Part shown: piece after piece, positions 28,771-35,361 of the stretch | Layout: each line of letters opens with the position of its first letter | Position numbering within the stretch: position 1 is the stretch's first letter | Origin: Curvibacter lanceolatus ATCC 14669 | Lineage (GTDB): Bacteria > Pseudomonadota > Gammaproteobacteria > Burkholderiales > Burkholderiaceae_C | Length of the DNA stretch: 64,000 nucleotides | Direction: 5' to 3' | NCBI RefSeq assembly: GCF_000381265.1 | Contig: NZ_KB906261.1 | Location: 62,001 to 126,000, forward strand | Translations under genes and position numbers: made by a program | Notes under the pieces: generated by a model | What the model was told of the DNA's origin: nothing | The model's database searches: none | Seen by the model: only the letters and a program-made list of their open reading frames with translations

Positions 28771-29907
28771 ATGGCCTTCATCAACTACGTCACCCAGATC
28801 CAGTTCGAGTTTGGCACCGTGCGCCTGCTGGCGGCCGAATGCGAGCGCGTGGGCATTCAGCGCCCCCTGATCGTCACCGACGCCGGGGTGCGCGCCGCCG
28901 GCGTGCTGCAAAAAGCCCTGGACGCCCTGCCCGGCCTGCCCCTGACCGTGTTCGACCAGACCCCCTCCAACCCCACCGAGGCCGCCGTCCGTGCGGCGGT
29001 CGAGCTGTACCGGGCTCAGGGCTGCGATGGCCTGATCGCCGTGGGCGGCGGCTCGGCCATCGACTGTGCCAAAGGCATTGCGATTGCGGCCACCCATGAA
29101 GGCCCGCTGACCACCTACGCCACCATCGAGGGCGGCTCCACCCGAATCACCGAACGCGCAGCGCCCCTGATCGCGGTGCCCACCACCAGCGGCACCGGCA
29201 GCGAGGTGGCGCGTGGCGCCATCATCATCGTGGACGACCACCGCAAGCTGGGCTTCCACTCTTGGCACCTGGTGCCGCGGGCCGCCATCTGCGACCCCGA
29301 ACTCACCCTGGGCCTGCCTCCAGGCCTCACGGCGGCCACCGGCATGGATGCGATTGCACACTGCATGGAGACCTTCATGTCGGCCGCCTTCAACCCCCCA
29401 GCCGACGGCATCGGCCTGGATGGCCTGGAACGCGGTTGGGCCCACATTGAACGCGCCACCCGCAACGGCCAGGACCGCGAGGCCCGCCTGCAACTGATGA
29501 GTGCCTCGATGCAAGGCGCCATGGCCTTCCAGAAAGGCCTGGGCTGCGTGCACAGCCTCAGCCACAGCCTGGGCGGCGTGAACCCGCGCCTGCACCACGG
29601 CACCCTGAACGCCATGTTCCTGCCCGCGGTGGTGCGCTTCAATGCCAGTGCCGAGTCGGTGCAGCGCGAACGCCGGCTGGACCGCATGGCCCACGCGATG
29701 GGCCTGCGCTCAGGCGGCGACATCCCCGATGCCATCCGCGACATGAACGCCCGCCTGGGCCTGCCCACCGGCCTGGCCGCCATGGGGGTGAGGCGGGATC
29801 AGTTCGACGATGTGATCAAGGGCGCCCTGGCCGACCACTGCCACAAGACCAACCCGCGCATCGCCAGCCCTGAGGAATACCGCGAGATGCTGGAAACCTC
29901 GATGTAA
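28771..29907 (+). CDS. Iron-containing alcohol dehydrogenase (group III)
   Basis: 378 residues. NAD-binding segment VGGGSAIDCAKGIA (GGGS) and VPTTSGTGSEVARGAIIIV are present, and the metal ligands DAIAHCMETFMSA, CVHSLSHSLGG and HHGTLNA give the Asp and three His of the Fe-ADH family. It interconverts an alcohol and aldehyde or ketone in the cytoplasm; relatives include 4-hydroxybutyrate, lactaldehyde and 1,3-propanediol dehydrogenases. ATG at 28771 starts MAFINYVTQIQFEFG, matching the family; a GTG 39 bases earlier is unlikely. It is alone and ends six bases from the convergent Rpn gene. Confidence 0.93.
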   Translation: MAFINYVTQIQFEFGTVRLLAAECERVGIQRPLIVTDAGVRAAGVLQKALDALPGLPLTVFDQTPSNPTEAAVRAAVELYRAQGCDGLIAVGGGSAIDCAKGIAIAATHEGPLTTYATIEGGSTRITERAAPLIAVPTTSGTGSEVARGAIIIVDDHRKLGFHSWHLVPRAAICDPELTLGLPPGLTAATGMDAIAHCMETFMSAAFNPPADGIGLDGLERGWAHIERATRNGQDREARLQLMSASMQGAMAFQKGLGCVHSLSHSLGGVNPRLHHGTLNAMFLPAVVRFNASAESVQRERRLDRMAHAMGLRSGGDIPDAIRDMNARLGLPTGLAAMGVRRDQFDDVIKGALADHCHKTNPRIASPEEYREMLETSM

Positions 29908-29913
29908 ACCGTG

Positions 29914-30243
29914 TCAGTGTCGGGCGCCGGCCTCGTCCAACAAAGCCTCCAGGGTGGGCGCGCTGAACATCTGCTCAGACCAGGCTTCCAAGCGCTCCAC
30001 AGAGGCGCTCTGAAGCCGCTGGTAGGCCCAGGCGGGCACGGGGGCGAAGCGCTGCTCGATCACTCGGGCCAGCATCATGGCGATGCCTTGTGAACGGCCC
30101 TGGGTAAGGCCTTGAGTAATGCCTTGAGTAAGGCCCTGGGAGAGCCCTTGAGAGAGCCCCAGCGACAGTCCTTGTGAATGTCCTTTGGAAAGTCCTTTTT
30201 CAATGGCTTCGTTGTAAAGGCGTTCCAGGGTTTCTTCGAGCAT
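29914..30243 (-). CDS. Candidate internal start producing a C-terminal Rpn fragment
   Basis: Within the nuclease gene, in the same frame, ATG at 30243 (codon 243) is preceded by GAAAGG seven bases upstream, the best ribosome site inside the gene. It would give 109 residues: a short helix (MLEETLERLYNEAIEKG), the tetrapeptide repeats and the tail. In E. coli rpn genes such internal products act as antitoxins to the full-length nuclease. Its use here is inference. Confidence 0.35.
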   Translation of the reverse strand: MLEETLERLYNEAIEKGLSKGHSQGLSLGLSQGLSQGLTQGITQGLTQGRSQGIAMMLARVIEQRFAPVPAWAYQRLQSASVERLEAWSEQMFSAPTLEALLDEAGARH

Positions 30244-30969
30244 GGTCGGGCCTTTCAGAAGGTCATGGATTTGATCGAGTTCGTCGGTGGCGATGTCCGG
30301 CATTTTGCGCCGTATCAGGCGACGGAGCCAGACATTGAGGGTTCTTCTCAATTTCTGATGCTCGGGGGCCTGGAGCGCCTGACCCATCGCGTACGCCAGC
30401 CTGGCAATGTCGGACCGGTTGGCGCTGTGCTCCAACTTGAACAAGGCTTCGGTCACGTTCCGAACCTCGTCTGACGGGGATAGCTTCAATCTGGCTTCAT
30501 CGATCAGGTGATACAGCAAGCGCGGCCTATAGGGCTCCAGAGCCGGTAGGCCGGGAGCGAAACAGTCTGATACATCAAGCGCTGAAGACCATGGGCGATG
30601 CCCCTTGTAGAGAACCATGGGCAACAAGGGCGGAAGTCTGCCCTGGTCCAACTGCCCTTCCTTGATCAGATGCTGGGCCAGCAGACCGACATAGACCATC
30701 ATGCGCACCGCCATCCATTCATCGGGCTGGCTTTGGAACTCCAGCAGCAGATAGACCCAGACCCAGCGCGGCCCCACCTGCAGCCGCCAAACCATGTCGT
30801 CGTGGCGCTGCTTGTCGGATTCGCTCACATAGCTGGCATTGACTCGCTCCAGGGTCTCAAACCGAGCGTCCTGGACCCAGTCACCAGGCACGAAGCCGAG
30901 CAGCAGGTCGCGCACCATCTCCGGGTGGGAGAAGAGCAGCTTGTAGTCGTTGTCGTGGTGCGTGGGCAT
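29914..30969 (-). CDS. Rpn/YhgA-family PD-(D/E)XK nuclease with tetrapeptide-repeat tail
   Basis: 351 residues. The N-terminal part matches the recombination-promoting nuclease family: DYKLLFSHPEMVRDLLLGFV, then DMVWRL and VYLLLEFQSQPDEWMA, where D...ExQ are the expected catalytic positions. A helical middle region (160-256) follows, then about ten copies of a 4-residue repeat (SQGL, TQGL and variants, residues 257-296), then a 55-residue tail. Rpn proteins of E. coli are DNA nucleases with RecA-independent recombination activity, reported to act as toxic anti-phage proteins restrained by a C-terminal fragment made from an internal start. A candidate internal start is present here. Local GC is slightly lower than in neighbours. 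It is not a transposase despite the common label. Confidence 0.88.
   Translation of the reverse strand: MPTHHDNDYKLLFSHPEMVRDLLLGFVPGDWVQDARFETLERVNASYVSESDKQRHDDMVWRLQVGPRWVWVYLLLEFQSQPDEWMAVRMMVYVGLLAQHLIKEGQLDQGRLPPLLPMVLYKGHRPWSSALDVSDCFAPGLPALEPYRPRLLYHLIDEARLKLSPSDEVRNVTEALFKLEHSANRSDIARLAYAMGQALQAPEHQKLRRTLNVWLRRLIRRKMPDIATDELDQIHDLLKGPTMLEETLERLYNEAIEKGLSKGHSQGLSLGLSQGLSQGLTQGITQGLTQGRSQGIAMMLARVIEQRFAPVPAWAYQRLQSASVERLEAWSEQMFSAPTLEALLDEAGARH
30082..30201 (-). repeat. Tandem 12-base repeat encoding S/T-Q-G-L tetrapeptides
   Basis: About ten degenerate copies of a 12-base unit encode residues 257-296 of the Rpn-like nuclease (EKGL, SKGH, SQGL, SLGL, SQGL, SQGL, TQGI, TQGL, TQGR, SQGI). 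The unit is a multiple of three, so copy-number change by slippage keeps the reading frame. Confidence 0.85.
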
Positions 30970-31067
30970 GGCCCATGCTGCCCTCGCAGGTGCGTCAACT
31001 GGGACGACAGCCGCCAGAATGCGGGCTCAGCCAGACAGTGGGCAGCCACCCTGCCTCGTGGAAGGGT

Positions 31068-32141
31068 TCAGAGGGCCTCGACCCGGCCCATGTCCGGGGC
31101 CTGCAGCCACTCGGCGAACTCGTCAGCCAGTTGCTGGCTGGCCTGCACCGCCCGGGTCCAGGCGGCGGAGCGGCCGGCGTGGTCGTTGCCGTAGTGGGTG
31201 AAGTCCTTGCGGTCGGGCAGCTTGGCATTGGGCAGGGTCTGCACCCAGGCCGGATCGGGAGCCAGCACCAGCATGGGGTCCAGAAAGGCACTGGCGCGAT
31301 GGCGCCATTTCAAGGCCTTGTCCAGCCAGCCCGGCACCACGGCCTGCTGAAAATGCGGGTACAGCACCACGCCCGGGGCGGGGTTCCGGTAGTCCAGGTG
31401 CATGTGGTAGTCGGTGATGCCGCCGTCCCAGTAGGCCCCCGGGGGCGCGCCGGCAATGGCACTGACCGAGCGCAGCACGAAGGGGATGGAGCAACTGGCC
31501 TGCACCGCATCCATGAAATTGGCCGGCGTGAGCGCCACCTGGCGGCTGCGGTAGTCGCGGGTGCCAAAGGGCAAGGCCGCGTGCTGGCTTGAGAAAACCA
31601 CCCGCTCCAGCCAGGCGCCCATGGCACGGCGCTGCACCGTGTTGCTCACAAACGCCCCCAGGTAGCCCAGCGGCGTCGCCAGGCCATGCTCGCGGGCCAG
31701 CAGGTGGCGCCCGCGCGAGGCGATCACATGCAGCCGGTAGCGTGGGTGCTGCAGCACCTCATGCTCACGCCCGCCAAAGAACAGTTTCAGGTTGTCGGCA
31801 AAGCGCTCGCTGACATGCTCGGCCGTGGGGCGCTTCTGGCCCGGCGCCAGGTCATAGCGCTGGGCGATGTAGTCGTGTTCCAGCCGGGCAAAGGCCTCGC
31901 CCGGGCGGTCCAGGCAGGCGGTGGCCATGCGCCAGGCGCCAATCGATGCCCCGACCAGATCGACGGGCTGGCTGGATCGGGCCAGCCAGTCGCCGAAAAG
32001 AAACCGGTCCAGCGGGCCCAGCACCAGCCCCTTGGGGCCGCCCGCGGCGGCAGGCACCACGCGCACGTGCTCGGGTTGGAGCCCATGGGCCTGCAAATGG
32101 GCGCGGGCCTGCGGCCCGGCATAGAGGCGAAGCGCTTTCAT
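31068..32141 (-). CDS. Patatin-like phospholipase family protein
   Basis: 357 residues. The nucleophile elbow is LVGASIGAWRMA (GxSxG), preceded by the oxyanion loop AAAGGPKGLVLG, and the catalytic Asp lies in YWDGGITDYHMH (DGG). These three elements define patatin lipases, which cleave acyl chains from lipids. There is no signal peptide. It sits 12 bases from the HDOD gene upstream on the same strand, so they may be co-transcribed; no functional link is evident. Lipid substrate unknown. Confidence 0.9.
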   Translation of the reverse strand: MKALRLYAGPQARAHLQAHGLQPEHVRVVPAAAGGPKGLVLGPLDRFLFGDWLARSSQPVDLVGASIGAWRMATACLDRPGEAFARLEHDYIAQRYDLAPGQKRPTAEHVSERFADNLKLFFGGREHEVLQHPRYRLHVIASRGRHLLAREHGLATPLGYLGAFVSNTVQRRAMGAWLERVVFSSQHAALPFGTRDYRSRQVALTPANFMDAVQASCSIPFVLRSVSAIAGAPPGAYWDGGITDYHMHLDYRNPAPGVVLYPHFQQAVVPGWLDKALKWRHRASAFLDPMLVLAPDPAWVQTLPNAKLPDRKDFTHYGNDHAGRSAAWTRAVQASQQLADEFAEWLQAPDMGRVEAL

Positions 32142-33015: not shown

Positions 33016-35361
33016 TCAGCGCGAGCGGTTTTGCAGCTTGGCAAATGCAGAAGCCATGGCGGAGGGGGCTGCCGCGTCGTTTTGACGCCGCTGCCCGCCA
33101 CCCTGGTGCTGGCGACCCGCACCTTCAAAGCGGTTGTCGCGCGGCCCATCGCGCCGCGCCGGTGCGGCATCGAGCTTCATGGACAGGCCGATGCGCTTGC
33201 GCTCCACATCCACCTCCATCACCTTGACCTTGACGATGTCGCCGGTCTTGACCACTTCGCGCGCATCGGTGACGAACTTATGGCTGAGCTGGCTCACGTG
33301 CACCAGACCGTCCTGGTGCACGCCCAGGTCGATGAAGGCGCCAAACTGGGCCACGTTGCTCACGGTGCCTTCGAGCACCATGCCTTCGCGCAGGTCCTTG
33401 ATGTCTTCCACGCCTTCATTGAAGCGCGCCACCTTGAAGTCGGGTCGCGGGTCGCGGCCCGGCTTTTCCAGCTCGCCCAGGATGTCCTTGACCGTGATGA
33501 CGCCGAACTTCTCGTTGGCGAACAGCTCGGGCTTCAGGGTCTTGAGCATGTCGGCACGGCCCATCAGCTCGGCCACCGGCTTGCCGGTCTTGGCCATGAT
33601 CTGCTCCACCACGGGGTAGGTCTCGGGGTGAACGCCGGTCATGTCCAGCGGGTTCTCACCGCCACGGATGCGCAGAAAACCGGCACTCAGCTCGAAGGTC
33701 TTGGCGCCCAGGCCGCTCACGCTCAGCAGTTGCTGGCGGCTGGCAAAGGCGCCATTGGCTTCGCGCCAACGCACCACGGCCTTGGCCACCGCGGCGCTCA
33801 GGCCCGACACCCGCGACAGCAAGGGCACGCTGGCGGTGTTCAGGTCCACCCCCACCGAGTTCACGCAGTCTTCCACCACCGCTTCGAGCGTGCGGGCCAG
33901 CTCGCTCTGGTTCACATCGTGCTGGTACTGGCCCACGCCGATGCTCTTGGGGTCGATTTTGACCAGCTCGGCCAGCGGATCCTGCAGGCGGCGGGCAATG
34001 CTGGCGGCGCCGCGCAGGCTCACGTCCACATCGGGCATCTCCTGCGAGGCGAACTCGCTGGCAGAGTACACCGAGGCACCGGCCTCGCTGACCACCACCT
34101 TCTCAACGTGGCGTTCGATCTTGGCCAGCAGCTTGATCAGGTCGGCCGCCAGTTTGTCGGTTTCGCGGCTGGCCGTGCCATTGCCGATGGCAATCAGGTT
34201 CACGCCGTGCTTCTCGCACAGGCGGCCCAGGGTGTGCAGCGAGCCGTCCCAGTCCCGGCGCGGCTCGTGCGGGAACACGGTGCTGGTGTCCACCAGCTTG
34301 CCGGTGGCGTCCACCACGGCCACCTTGACGCCGGTGCGGATGCCCGGGTCCAGACCCATCACCACGCGCGGGCCGGCAGGCGCCGCCAGCAACAAATCGC
34401 GCAGGTTGTCGGCAAACACCTTGATGGCCACTTTTTCAGCGTCTTCGCGCAGGCGCGAGAACAGATCACGCTCGGTGGACAGGCTCAGCTTGACGCGCCA
34501 GGTCCAGGCCACGCACTTGCGGATCAGGTCGTCGGCGGGGCGGCCGCCATGGCTCCAGCCCAGGTGCAGGGCGATGCGCCCTTCCGCCACCGAGGGTTGG
34601 CCGGCTTCGGGCGGCACCGGCAGCACCAGCTTGGCTTCCAGGATCTCCTGCGTGCGGCCGCGGAACACCGCCAGCGCGCGGTGCGAGGGCACGCGACCGA
34701 TGGGCTCGTCGTAGTCGAAATAGTCGCGGAACTTGGCCACATCGGGGTGGTTCTCGTCCTTGCCCTCGATCTTGCTGCTCTTCAGCAGGCCTTCGTTCCA
34801 CAGCCATTCGCGCAGGTTCTGCACCAAGGCAGCGTCCTCAGCCCAGCGCTCGGACAGGATGTCGCGCACGCCGTCGAGCACGGCCCCGGTGGTGGTGAAG
34901 TCGCTGCCGTCTTCGCCCTTGGCGGCCTTCACAAAGGCCTGGGCCTCGTCGGCCGGCACCCGGGTGGGGTCGGCAAACAACAGATCGGCCAGGGGCTCGA
35001 TGCCGGCCTCGCGGGCGATCTGGCCCTTGGTGCGGCGCTTTTGCTTGTAGGGCAGGTACAGGTCTTCCAGCTCCTGCTTGGTGGGCGCCGCGTCAATGGC
35101 GGCGCGCAGGGCGTCGGTCAGCTTGCCTTGCTCGGCAATGCTCTTCAGGATGGCCTCGCGGCGGTCTTCCAGCTCGCGCAGGTAGGCCAGGCGGGCTTCC
35201 AGCTCACGCAGCTGGATGTCGTCCAGGCCCTGGGTCACTTCCTTGCGGTAGCGGGCAATGAAGGGCACGGTGGCGCCCCCGTCCAGCAGTTCCACAGCGG
35301 CGCGCACCTGCGCCTCGTTCACCCTGATTTCAGCGGCCAGTTGCCGAATGATCTTTTGCAT
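33016..35361 (-). CDS. tex: Transcription accessory protein Tex (S1 RNA-binding)
   Basis: 781 residues, the usual Tex length. Domains in order: N-terminal helical region (MQKIIRQLAAEIRVNEAQ), YqgF-like fold at about 330-430 (VMGLDPGIRTGVKVAVVD), helix-hairpin-helix (VDLNTASVPLLSRVSGLS), and an S1 domain at about 655-725 (EGTVSNVAQFGAFIDLGVHQ, HVSQLSHKFV). The tail is Arg/Gln/Gly-rich. It binds nucleic acid and supports transcription fidelity and stress survival. The same frame stays open for 593 codons upstream across the antiport gene, but the true start is ATG 35361. Confidence 0.96.
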   Translation of the reverse strand: MQKIIRQLAAEIRVNEAQVRAAVELLDGGATVPFIARYRKEVTQGLDDIQLRELEARLAYLRELEDRREAILKSIAEQGKLTDALRAAIDAAPTKQELEDLYLPYKQKRRTKGQIAREAGIEPLADLLFADPTRVPADEAQAFVKAAKGEDGSDFTTTGAVLDGVRDILSERWAEDAALVQNLREWLWNEGLLKSSKIEGKDENHPDVAKFRDYFDYDEPIGRVPSHRALAVFRGRTQEILEAKLVLPVPPEAGQPSVAEGRIALHLGWSHGGRPADDLIRKCVAWTWRVKLSLSTERDLFSRLREDAEKVAIKVFADNLRDLLLAAPAGPRVVMGLDPGIRTGVKVAVVDATGKLVDTSTVFPHEPRRDWDGSLHTLGRLCEKHGVNLIAIGNGTASRETDKLAADLIKLLAKIERHVEKVVVSEAGASVYSASEFASQEMPDVDVSLRGAASIARRLQDPLAELVKIDPKSIGVGQYQHDVNQSELARTLEAVVEDCVNSVGVDLNTASVPLLSRVSGLSAAVAKAVVRWREANGAFASRQQLLSVSGLGAKTFELSAGFLRIRGGENPLDMTGVHPETYPVVEQIMAKTGKPVAELMGRADMLKTLKPELFANEKFGVITVKDILGELEKPGRDPRPDFKVARFNEGVEDIKDLREGMVLEGTVSNVAQFGAFIDLGVHQDGLVHVSQLSHKFVTDAREVVKTGDIVKVKVMEVDVERKRIGLSMKLDAAPARRDGPRDNRFEGAGRQHQGGGQRRQNDAAAPSAMASAFAKLQNRSR

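Follow-up and report, generated by a model that had tools for sequence, protein, structure and literature searches.

The minus strand of the 64,000-nucleotide window (the whole stretch of DNA that was analysed, part of a 6.8-Mb draft assembly) carries an rpn gene that is likely to be an Rpn toxin-antitoxin pair, built as a gene within a gene and working as RpnL/RpnS. Of the steps in the proposed mechanism, the internal start is the one best supported by sequence comparison. Its conservation together with a Shine-Dalgarno (SD) sequence suggests that PF04754 genes in general have such a start under selection, and this would hold as well for the DUF4351-tailed branch, of which the window gene is a member.

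The rpn gene and its internal start codon

The rpn gene (29914..30969, minus strand) was defined by its open frame, a PF04754 match and orthologues. Its product, RpnL, has 351 aa (40.2 kDa). Residues 3-204 matched Pfam family PF04754 (Transposase_31, YhgA-like) with an E-value of 1.1e-26 and 94.2 bits against a cut-off of 21, covering profile positions 1-197 of 203. The same residues were assigned to a PD-(D/E)XK-type nuclease domain (30358..30963, minus strand) from the Pfam span, residue mapping and a weak fold match. In an alignment with RpnA, D6, D58, E77, Q79 and R89 were the identical counterparts of D11, D63, E82, Q84 and R94, whose roles were tested according to PMC5350276; RpnA D165, which lies outside the core, is replaced by S164. 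Two models of narrower groups were scored below their cut-offs, NCBIfam TIGR01784 (29.7 bits, cut-off 52.1) and the RpnA equivalog NF007361 (44.8 bits, cut-off 583), and membership was assigned to neither. The closest orthologues, 97% and 93% identical, are from Curvibacter gracilis (ATCC BAA-807) and a Curvibacter metagenome-assembled genome (MAG).

Codon 243 is an ATG (30241..30243, minus strand), and the SD sequence GAAAGG (30251..30256, minus strand) precedes it with a 7-nt spacer; around this site the minus strand reads ...cttctGAAAGGcccgaccATGctcgaag... Translation from codon 243 would yield RpnS, a putative intragenic antitoxin of 109 aa and 11.9 kDa (29914..30243, minus strand), with a predicted helix from residue 241. 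All six bases of GAAAGG can pair with CCUUUC, part of the 16S tail GGATCACCTCCTTTCT. This tail was taken from another Curvibacter species (G003, L208), since a pattern search of the draft assembly did not find its own 16S.

Among the 32 internal ATG, GTG and TTG codons, the SD consensus was matched over the longest run at M243 (6 nt; runner-up, 5 nt). Duplex energies were ordinary: a 9-nt anti-SD gave -3.5 kcal/mol and the 12-nt tail -7.2 kcal/mol, values bettered by three and two, respectively, of the gene's ten further internal ATGs downstream of codon 30. Under a synonymous-codon null, the window SD site showed no enrichment (p = 1.0). On account of these energies and this p-value, the window gene alone was rejected as evidence for an internal start. 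Taken by itself, its internal ATG with SD could be chance: one match of at least 6 nt per gene is unremarkable, because such matches were found at 14/533 other internal ATGs in relatives.

Downstream of codon 243, nine tetrapeptide (12-bp) repeats were identified (GLSK, GHSQ, GLSL, GLSQ, GLSQ, GLTQ, GITQ, GLTQ and GRSQ; 30088..30195, minus strand). The units start 16 residues past M243 (15 residues intervene), and each begins with glycine. Their number is 9 in the window protein and 7 and 8 in the two closest orthologues (351, 343 and 347 aa, respectively). Residues 290-343 (29941..30102, minus strand) form a DUF4351-like tail; the score against DUF4351 (PF14261) was 21.1 bits, under the Pfam cut-off of 25, and membership is not claimed. 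The first-pass annotation had described an Rpn nuclease gene, an ATG at codon 243 preceded by GAAAGG, and a predicted short product made of the helix, the tetrapeptide repeats and the tail. At the sequence level all of this was borne out, by the PF04754 score and the intact catalytic residues, by the positions given above, and by an internal start that lies at the place conserved in the family and precedes both the repeat helix and the tail.

An AlphaFold2 model computed from 11 sequences (mean pLDDT 78.4) showed a nuclease-like core, a break at residues 232-240, helices at 241-278 and 280-308, and short helices beyond. Confidence in this layout was low to modest, with a pLDDT of just 55-69 over residues 231-290. 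With the model taken at face value, at low confidence, the internal start would fall at a domain border. The best fold match was the nuclease EndoMS (Z 8.2 over 104 residues) in a list headed by nuclease domains; the match was weak and modestly above background. Foldseek searches with the model returned no match at an E-value of 0.001 or better. RpnA-S was absent from the structural match list, which says nothing about the tail, and its structure 7TH0 was not listed by phmmer with the window protein as query.

Several other matches to the repeat helix were rejected. NCBIfam FliH models matched residues 243-303; the E-value was 2.4e-10 at best, and the 40 bits reached compare with a cut-off of 293. 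FliH membership was discarded because the matches cover only the helix with glycine at every fourth residue and thus reflect a common repeat composition. Matches to archaeal TFIIB in the helix region were read as composition or chance, as was the PADLOC candidate model C3a178 ('putative invertase') at residues 260-301, which scored 18.7 bits (E 4.5e-4) with the long form and 21 bits (8.3e-5) with the short form. A scan limited to sigma-70-like promoters found none on either strand of 29700-31300; for E. coli rpn genes, an internal transcription start is described in PMC10327210.

Conservation of the internal start in Rpn homologues

PF04754 genes were sampled at family, order and class level (matches in 15/399, 17/399 and 43/369 genomes, with the own genome counted each time). 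Further homologues were obtained from genus and family protein searches, additional regions and E. coli K-12; in the family protein search 31/299 genomes were matched, many in the repeat helix only. Of 146 ORF matches, 106 were kept that had a stop codon and a match starting by query position 60 and reaching position 185. From these 106 genes, 79 representatives less than 80% identical to one another were drawn. The homologue set included E. coli RpnA, B, C and E, of which RpnE is annotated as inactive; RpnD, a pseudogene in the record, dropped out. Internal starts were sought in a 12-codon span (-3 to +8 codons) that was chosen after the alignment had been inspected. Where several ATGs occurred in the span, the best SD decided which of them was used; SD counts made column by column are independent of this choice.

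An ATG was present inside the span at the aligned position in 77/79 representatives, compared with 390/1689 other 12-codon windows. SD analyses were done on 76 sites, leaving out L160 and L121 (no ATG in the span) and L117, which has a 3-residue tail and is counted in the 77. Pairing with the 9-nt anti-SD reached -5 kcal/mol or lower at 74/76 sites vs 84/533 other internal ATGs, and with the 12-nt tail at 76/76 vs 121/533. An SD match of at least 5 nt was found at 61 of the 76 internal starts and at 40 of the 533 control ATGs. By column, such matches preceded 28/34, 26/33 and 8/9 of the internal-start codons vs 3/68 in the conserved M86 column. M86 served as control as the most frequent Met column among the 18 listed, and the remaining non-start columns had 0 to 4 such SDs each. 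Pairing exceeded the site's own synonymous-codon mean at 72/76 sites and reached p <= 0.05 individually at only 11/76. The family-level shift was clear; its Wilcoxon p = 2e-13 is overstated, as shared ancestry was ignored, and more weight was therefore given to the counts and to the M86 control.

The SD core was distributed over the three codon phases at 49, 26 and 1 of the 76 sites, and the residues that it encodes vary among homologues (LKGPT, FERTP, QEVHT, KELK). Since the core occurs in two codon phases, the RNA signal, and not the peptide alone, appears to be kept; together with the varying residues this points to selection acting on the RNA signal. Judged from these alignments, the internal ATG with its SD is not a chance feature of the family. 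The M243 site is raised above chance by its homologues, in which position and SD are conserved.

Few SDs in the family are as weak as that of the window gene. Only two of the 76 sites fell short of -5 kcal/mol with the 9-nt anti-SD, those of the window gene and of L009, a near relative (both -3.5 kcal/mol). These two weakest sites and the window's agreement with synonymous chance are what would be expected if Met243 were a protein-level residue at the start of the helix, with no short protein made from the window copy and the weak SD left as a relic. The clade of the window also carries GAAAGG where two other C. gracilis copies (L011, L017) have GAAGGAG. We regard such a relic as unlikely: GAAAGG-N7-ATG is kept in 5/5 full-length genes from the two Curvibacter groups that are nearest (the window, L006, L007, L001 and L009), GAAAGG can form six base pairs with the 16S tail of the genus, and elsewhere in the family the SD stays although the encoded residues differ.

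Rated lower still is the reading in which the internal start is used, yet RpnS, instead of inhibiting RpnL, partners it structurally or stoichiometrically in the way that Cas11d partners Cas10d. Identical conservation of the internal start would be expected in that case, and RpnA has been described as a tetrameric complex in which two long subunits join two short ones (PMC10327210). An inhibitory role is favoured by the E. coli results in the same source, where RpnS, made from within rpn, binds RpnL and blocks its toxicity, with DNA cleavage, SOS induction and growth inhibition all suppressed. That the internal ATG and SD are a chance feature of this one gene is very improbable, already disfavoured by a position conserved in divergent representatives, even though at the per-codon rate of 14/533 the ten other internal ATGs of the gene make a match of at least 6 nt not rare.

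Locus context, paralogues and repeat number

The rpn gene lies in a presence/absence segment of approximate extent 29906..31073 (no strand assigned), delimited by BLAST match ends, intergenic reads and flanks that adjoin in other species. In two other Curvibacter species (G001, G003), the Fe-ADH and patatin genes adjoin without rpn, with match ends about 70 bp apart. Because the flanking genes adjoin there, the gain or loss involved rpn alone. In a further genome (G005) the Fe-ADH gene is present and the patatin side is unmatched. Relatives of the window protein were found in 3/9 genus genomes searched, the own genome included.

The first-pass annotation had also raised the possibility of a defence locus, for which the context gives no support: 0/9 neighbouring proteins matched PADLOC at E 0.001. 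A phage-defence function could nevertheless apply, because solitary systems exist. By Pfam, the nine neighbours are a YceG protein, a GCV_T-domain protein, a thioesterase/GNAT protein, an alpha/beta hydrolase, an Fe-ADH, a patatin, an HDOD protein, Tex and a cation/proton exchanger. Their domains are general cellular ones. The patatin domain also occurs in CBASS effectors; the patatin neighbour had no PADLOC match. The Tex/YhgF homologue (33019-35361) is situated about 2 kb from rpn, and in E. coli K-12 rpnA is about 3.5 kb from yhgF. This proximity in both genomes is probably a coincidence.

The window genome contains three long rpn copies (on C9, C3 and C5) and fragments on C17 and C21. The C3 paralogue and its C. 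gracilis counterpart are one repeat unit apart (343 and 339 aa). In the C5 copy, the nuclease half is split by a repeat-bounded insert, and the RpnS half remains open. The insert (about 265 bp, inverted-repeat ends; L003, about 1996-2260; G000:C5:128413-128677) has a second copy on C7 at 95% identity and an end-like match on C4. From these sequence features it appears to be a MITE-like, mobile-looking element. The SD of the split copy is weak (GAAAGA, -1.2 kcal/mol) compared with that of the intact syntenic C. gracilis copy (GAAGGAG, -8.4 kcal/mol). Another broken copy (L010, on G004:C474) retains GAAAGG.

Paralogue lengths were compared using loci from selected genomes (78 ORFs). One genome of the same order (G601) had 23 PF04754 matches, several of them in tandem (L146, L091, L231, L232). 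The 18 long G601 copies analysed fell into three subfamilies with repeat-length ladders in four-residue steps. Seven closely related copies of one subfamily had seven different RpnS lengths, from 78 to 106; in the other two, 6 distinct lengths were counted in 8 copies and 2 in 3. For G506, the count was 4 in 6. Strict insulation by repeat number, with every paralogue distinct, was rejected as a rule, since ties exist. The broader idea, that RpnS repeat number is an insulation code between paralogues sharing a cell and that an internal SD persists only as long as the nuclease half stays functional, is put forward tentatively and seems rather doubtful. It draws on the seven distinct lengths in one G601 subfamily and on the weak SD of the split C5 copy compared with its intact C. 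gracilis counterpart. It is weakened by the ties in repeat length, by an SD difference seen in one case, and by the GAAAGG kept in L010.

RpnS-like frames were also observed outside complete rpn genes. Several RpnS-like fragments lie in a row next to a full rpn gene in L174 (G923:C1:3797500-3800000). On an IMG/VR contig (L204, 4992-5390), a second rpnS-like frame, which has fewer repeats, comes after an rpn gene, an arrangement like that of E. coli rpnE-ypaA. A C. gracilis contig (L023, 2-352, minus strand; G002:C55) carries an RpnS-like frame of 116 codons, which may be a cut gene rather than a stand-alone rpnS because it sits at the contig end.

Proposed mechanism and comparison with E. coli RpnL/RpnS

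Background on the E. coli systems was taken from the abstract, Results, Discussion and legends of a preprint (Zhong et al. 2023, PMC10327210). There, RpnA-RpnE are described as RpnL/RpnS intragenic toxin-antitoxin systems, and internal starts were shown for five E. coli rpn genes and one C. difficile gene. For RpnC, RpnS counteracted RpnL only if the repeat numbers agreed, and one plasmid Rpn system restricted T-even phages. Some species have separate rpnS genes annotated as DUF4351. No other study of Rpn internal starts was found among the literature matches listed. The family-wide count of internal SDs and the repeat ladder of the G601 paralogues, which were not found in those parts of the preprint, are additions to the known picture.

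By analogy with E. coli, and for RpnS synthesis also with C. difficile, both proteins would be made from the window gene. Ribosomes starting at 30969 would produce RpnL, a PD-(D/E)XK DNA endonuclease with repeat helix and tail, and those starting at the internal ATG (30243) would produce RpnS, consisting of the helix and tail alone. RpnS would then pair via its repeats with the same helix of RpnL, and the nuclease would be held inactive. Which RpnL and RpnS fit would be decided by repeat number. As in the E. coli model, RpnS would act as an inhibitor of RpnL and the released nuclease would counter phage.

If the internal start is general in PF04754, many genes annotated as 'transposase' would carry a hidden antitoxin. 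The window adds one clean case, a gene whose orthologues share 93-97% identity but not the number of repeats, and the three orthologues are a handy natural set for studying repeat-length specificity.

The window gene is thus probably a further example of a design already proven in E. coli, with the antitoxin role assigned by analogy. Like the E. coli systems, it encodes a PF04754 nuclease domain, whose five catalytic positions agree with those of RpnA. It has an internal ATG with SD, at codon 243 here and at the proven M244 of 292 in RpnA, and its tetrapeptide repeats start 16 residues after this Met, inside the published range of 8-20 residues. Repeat number differs among close relatives, and the gene is gained or lost singly.

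The Curvibacter copy differs from RpnA in being 22% identical over aligned columns. Its short form is 109 aa long and DUF4351-like compared with 49 aa for RpnA-S, and its SD is weaker. RpnA M244 was aligned about five residues later than M243. Because of this offset and a tail unlike RpnA-S, the equivalence of the two starts rests on position, SD and repeats. The tail weakly resembles DUF4351 (PF14261); it is fused to the nuclease in the window gene, whereas rpnS genes annotated as DUF4351 in some species are separate.
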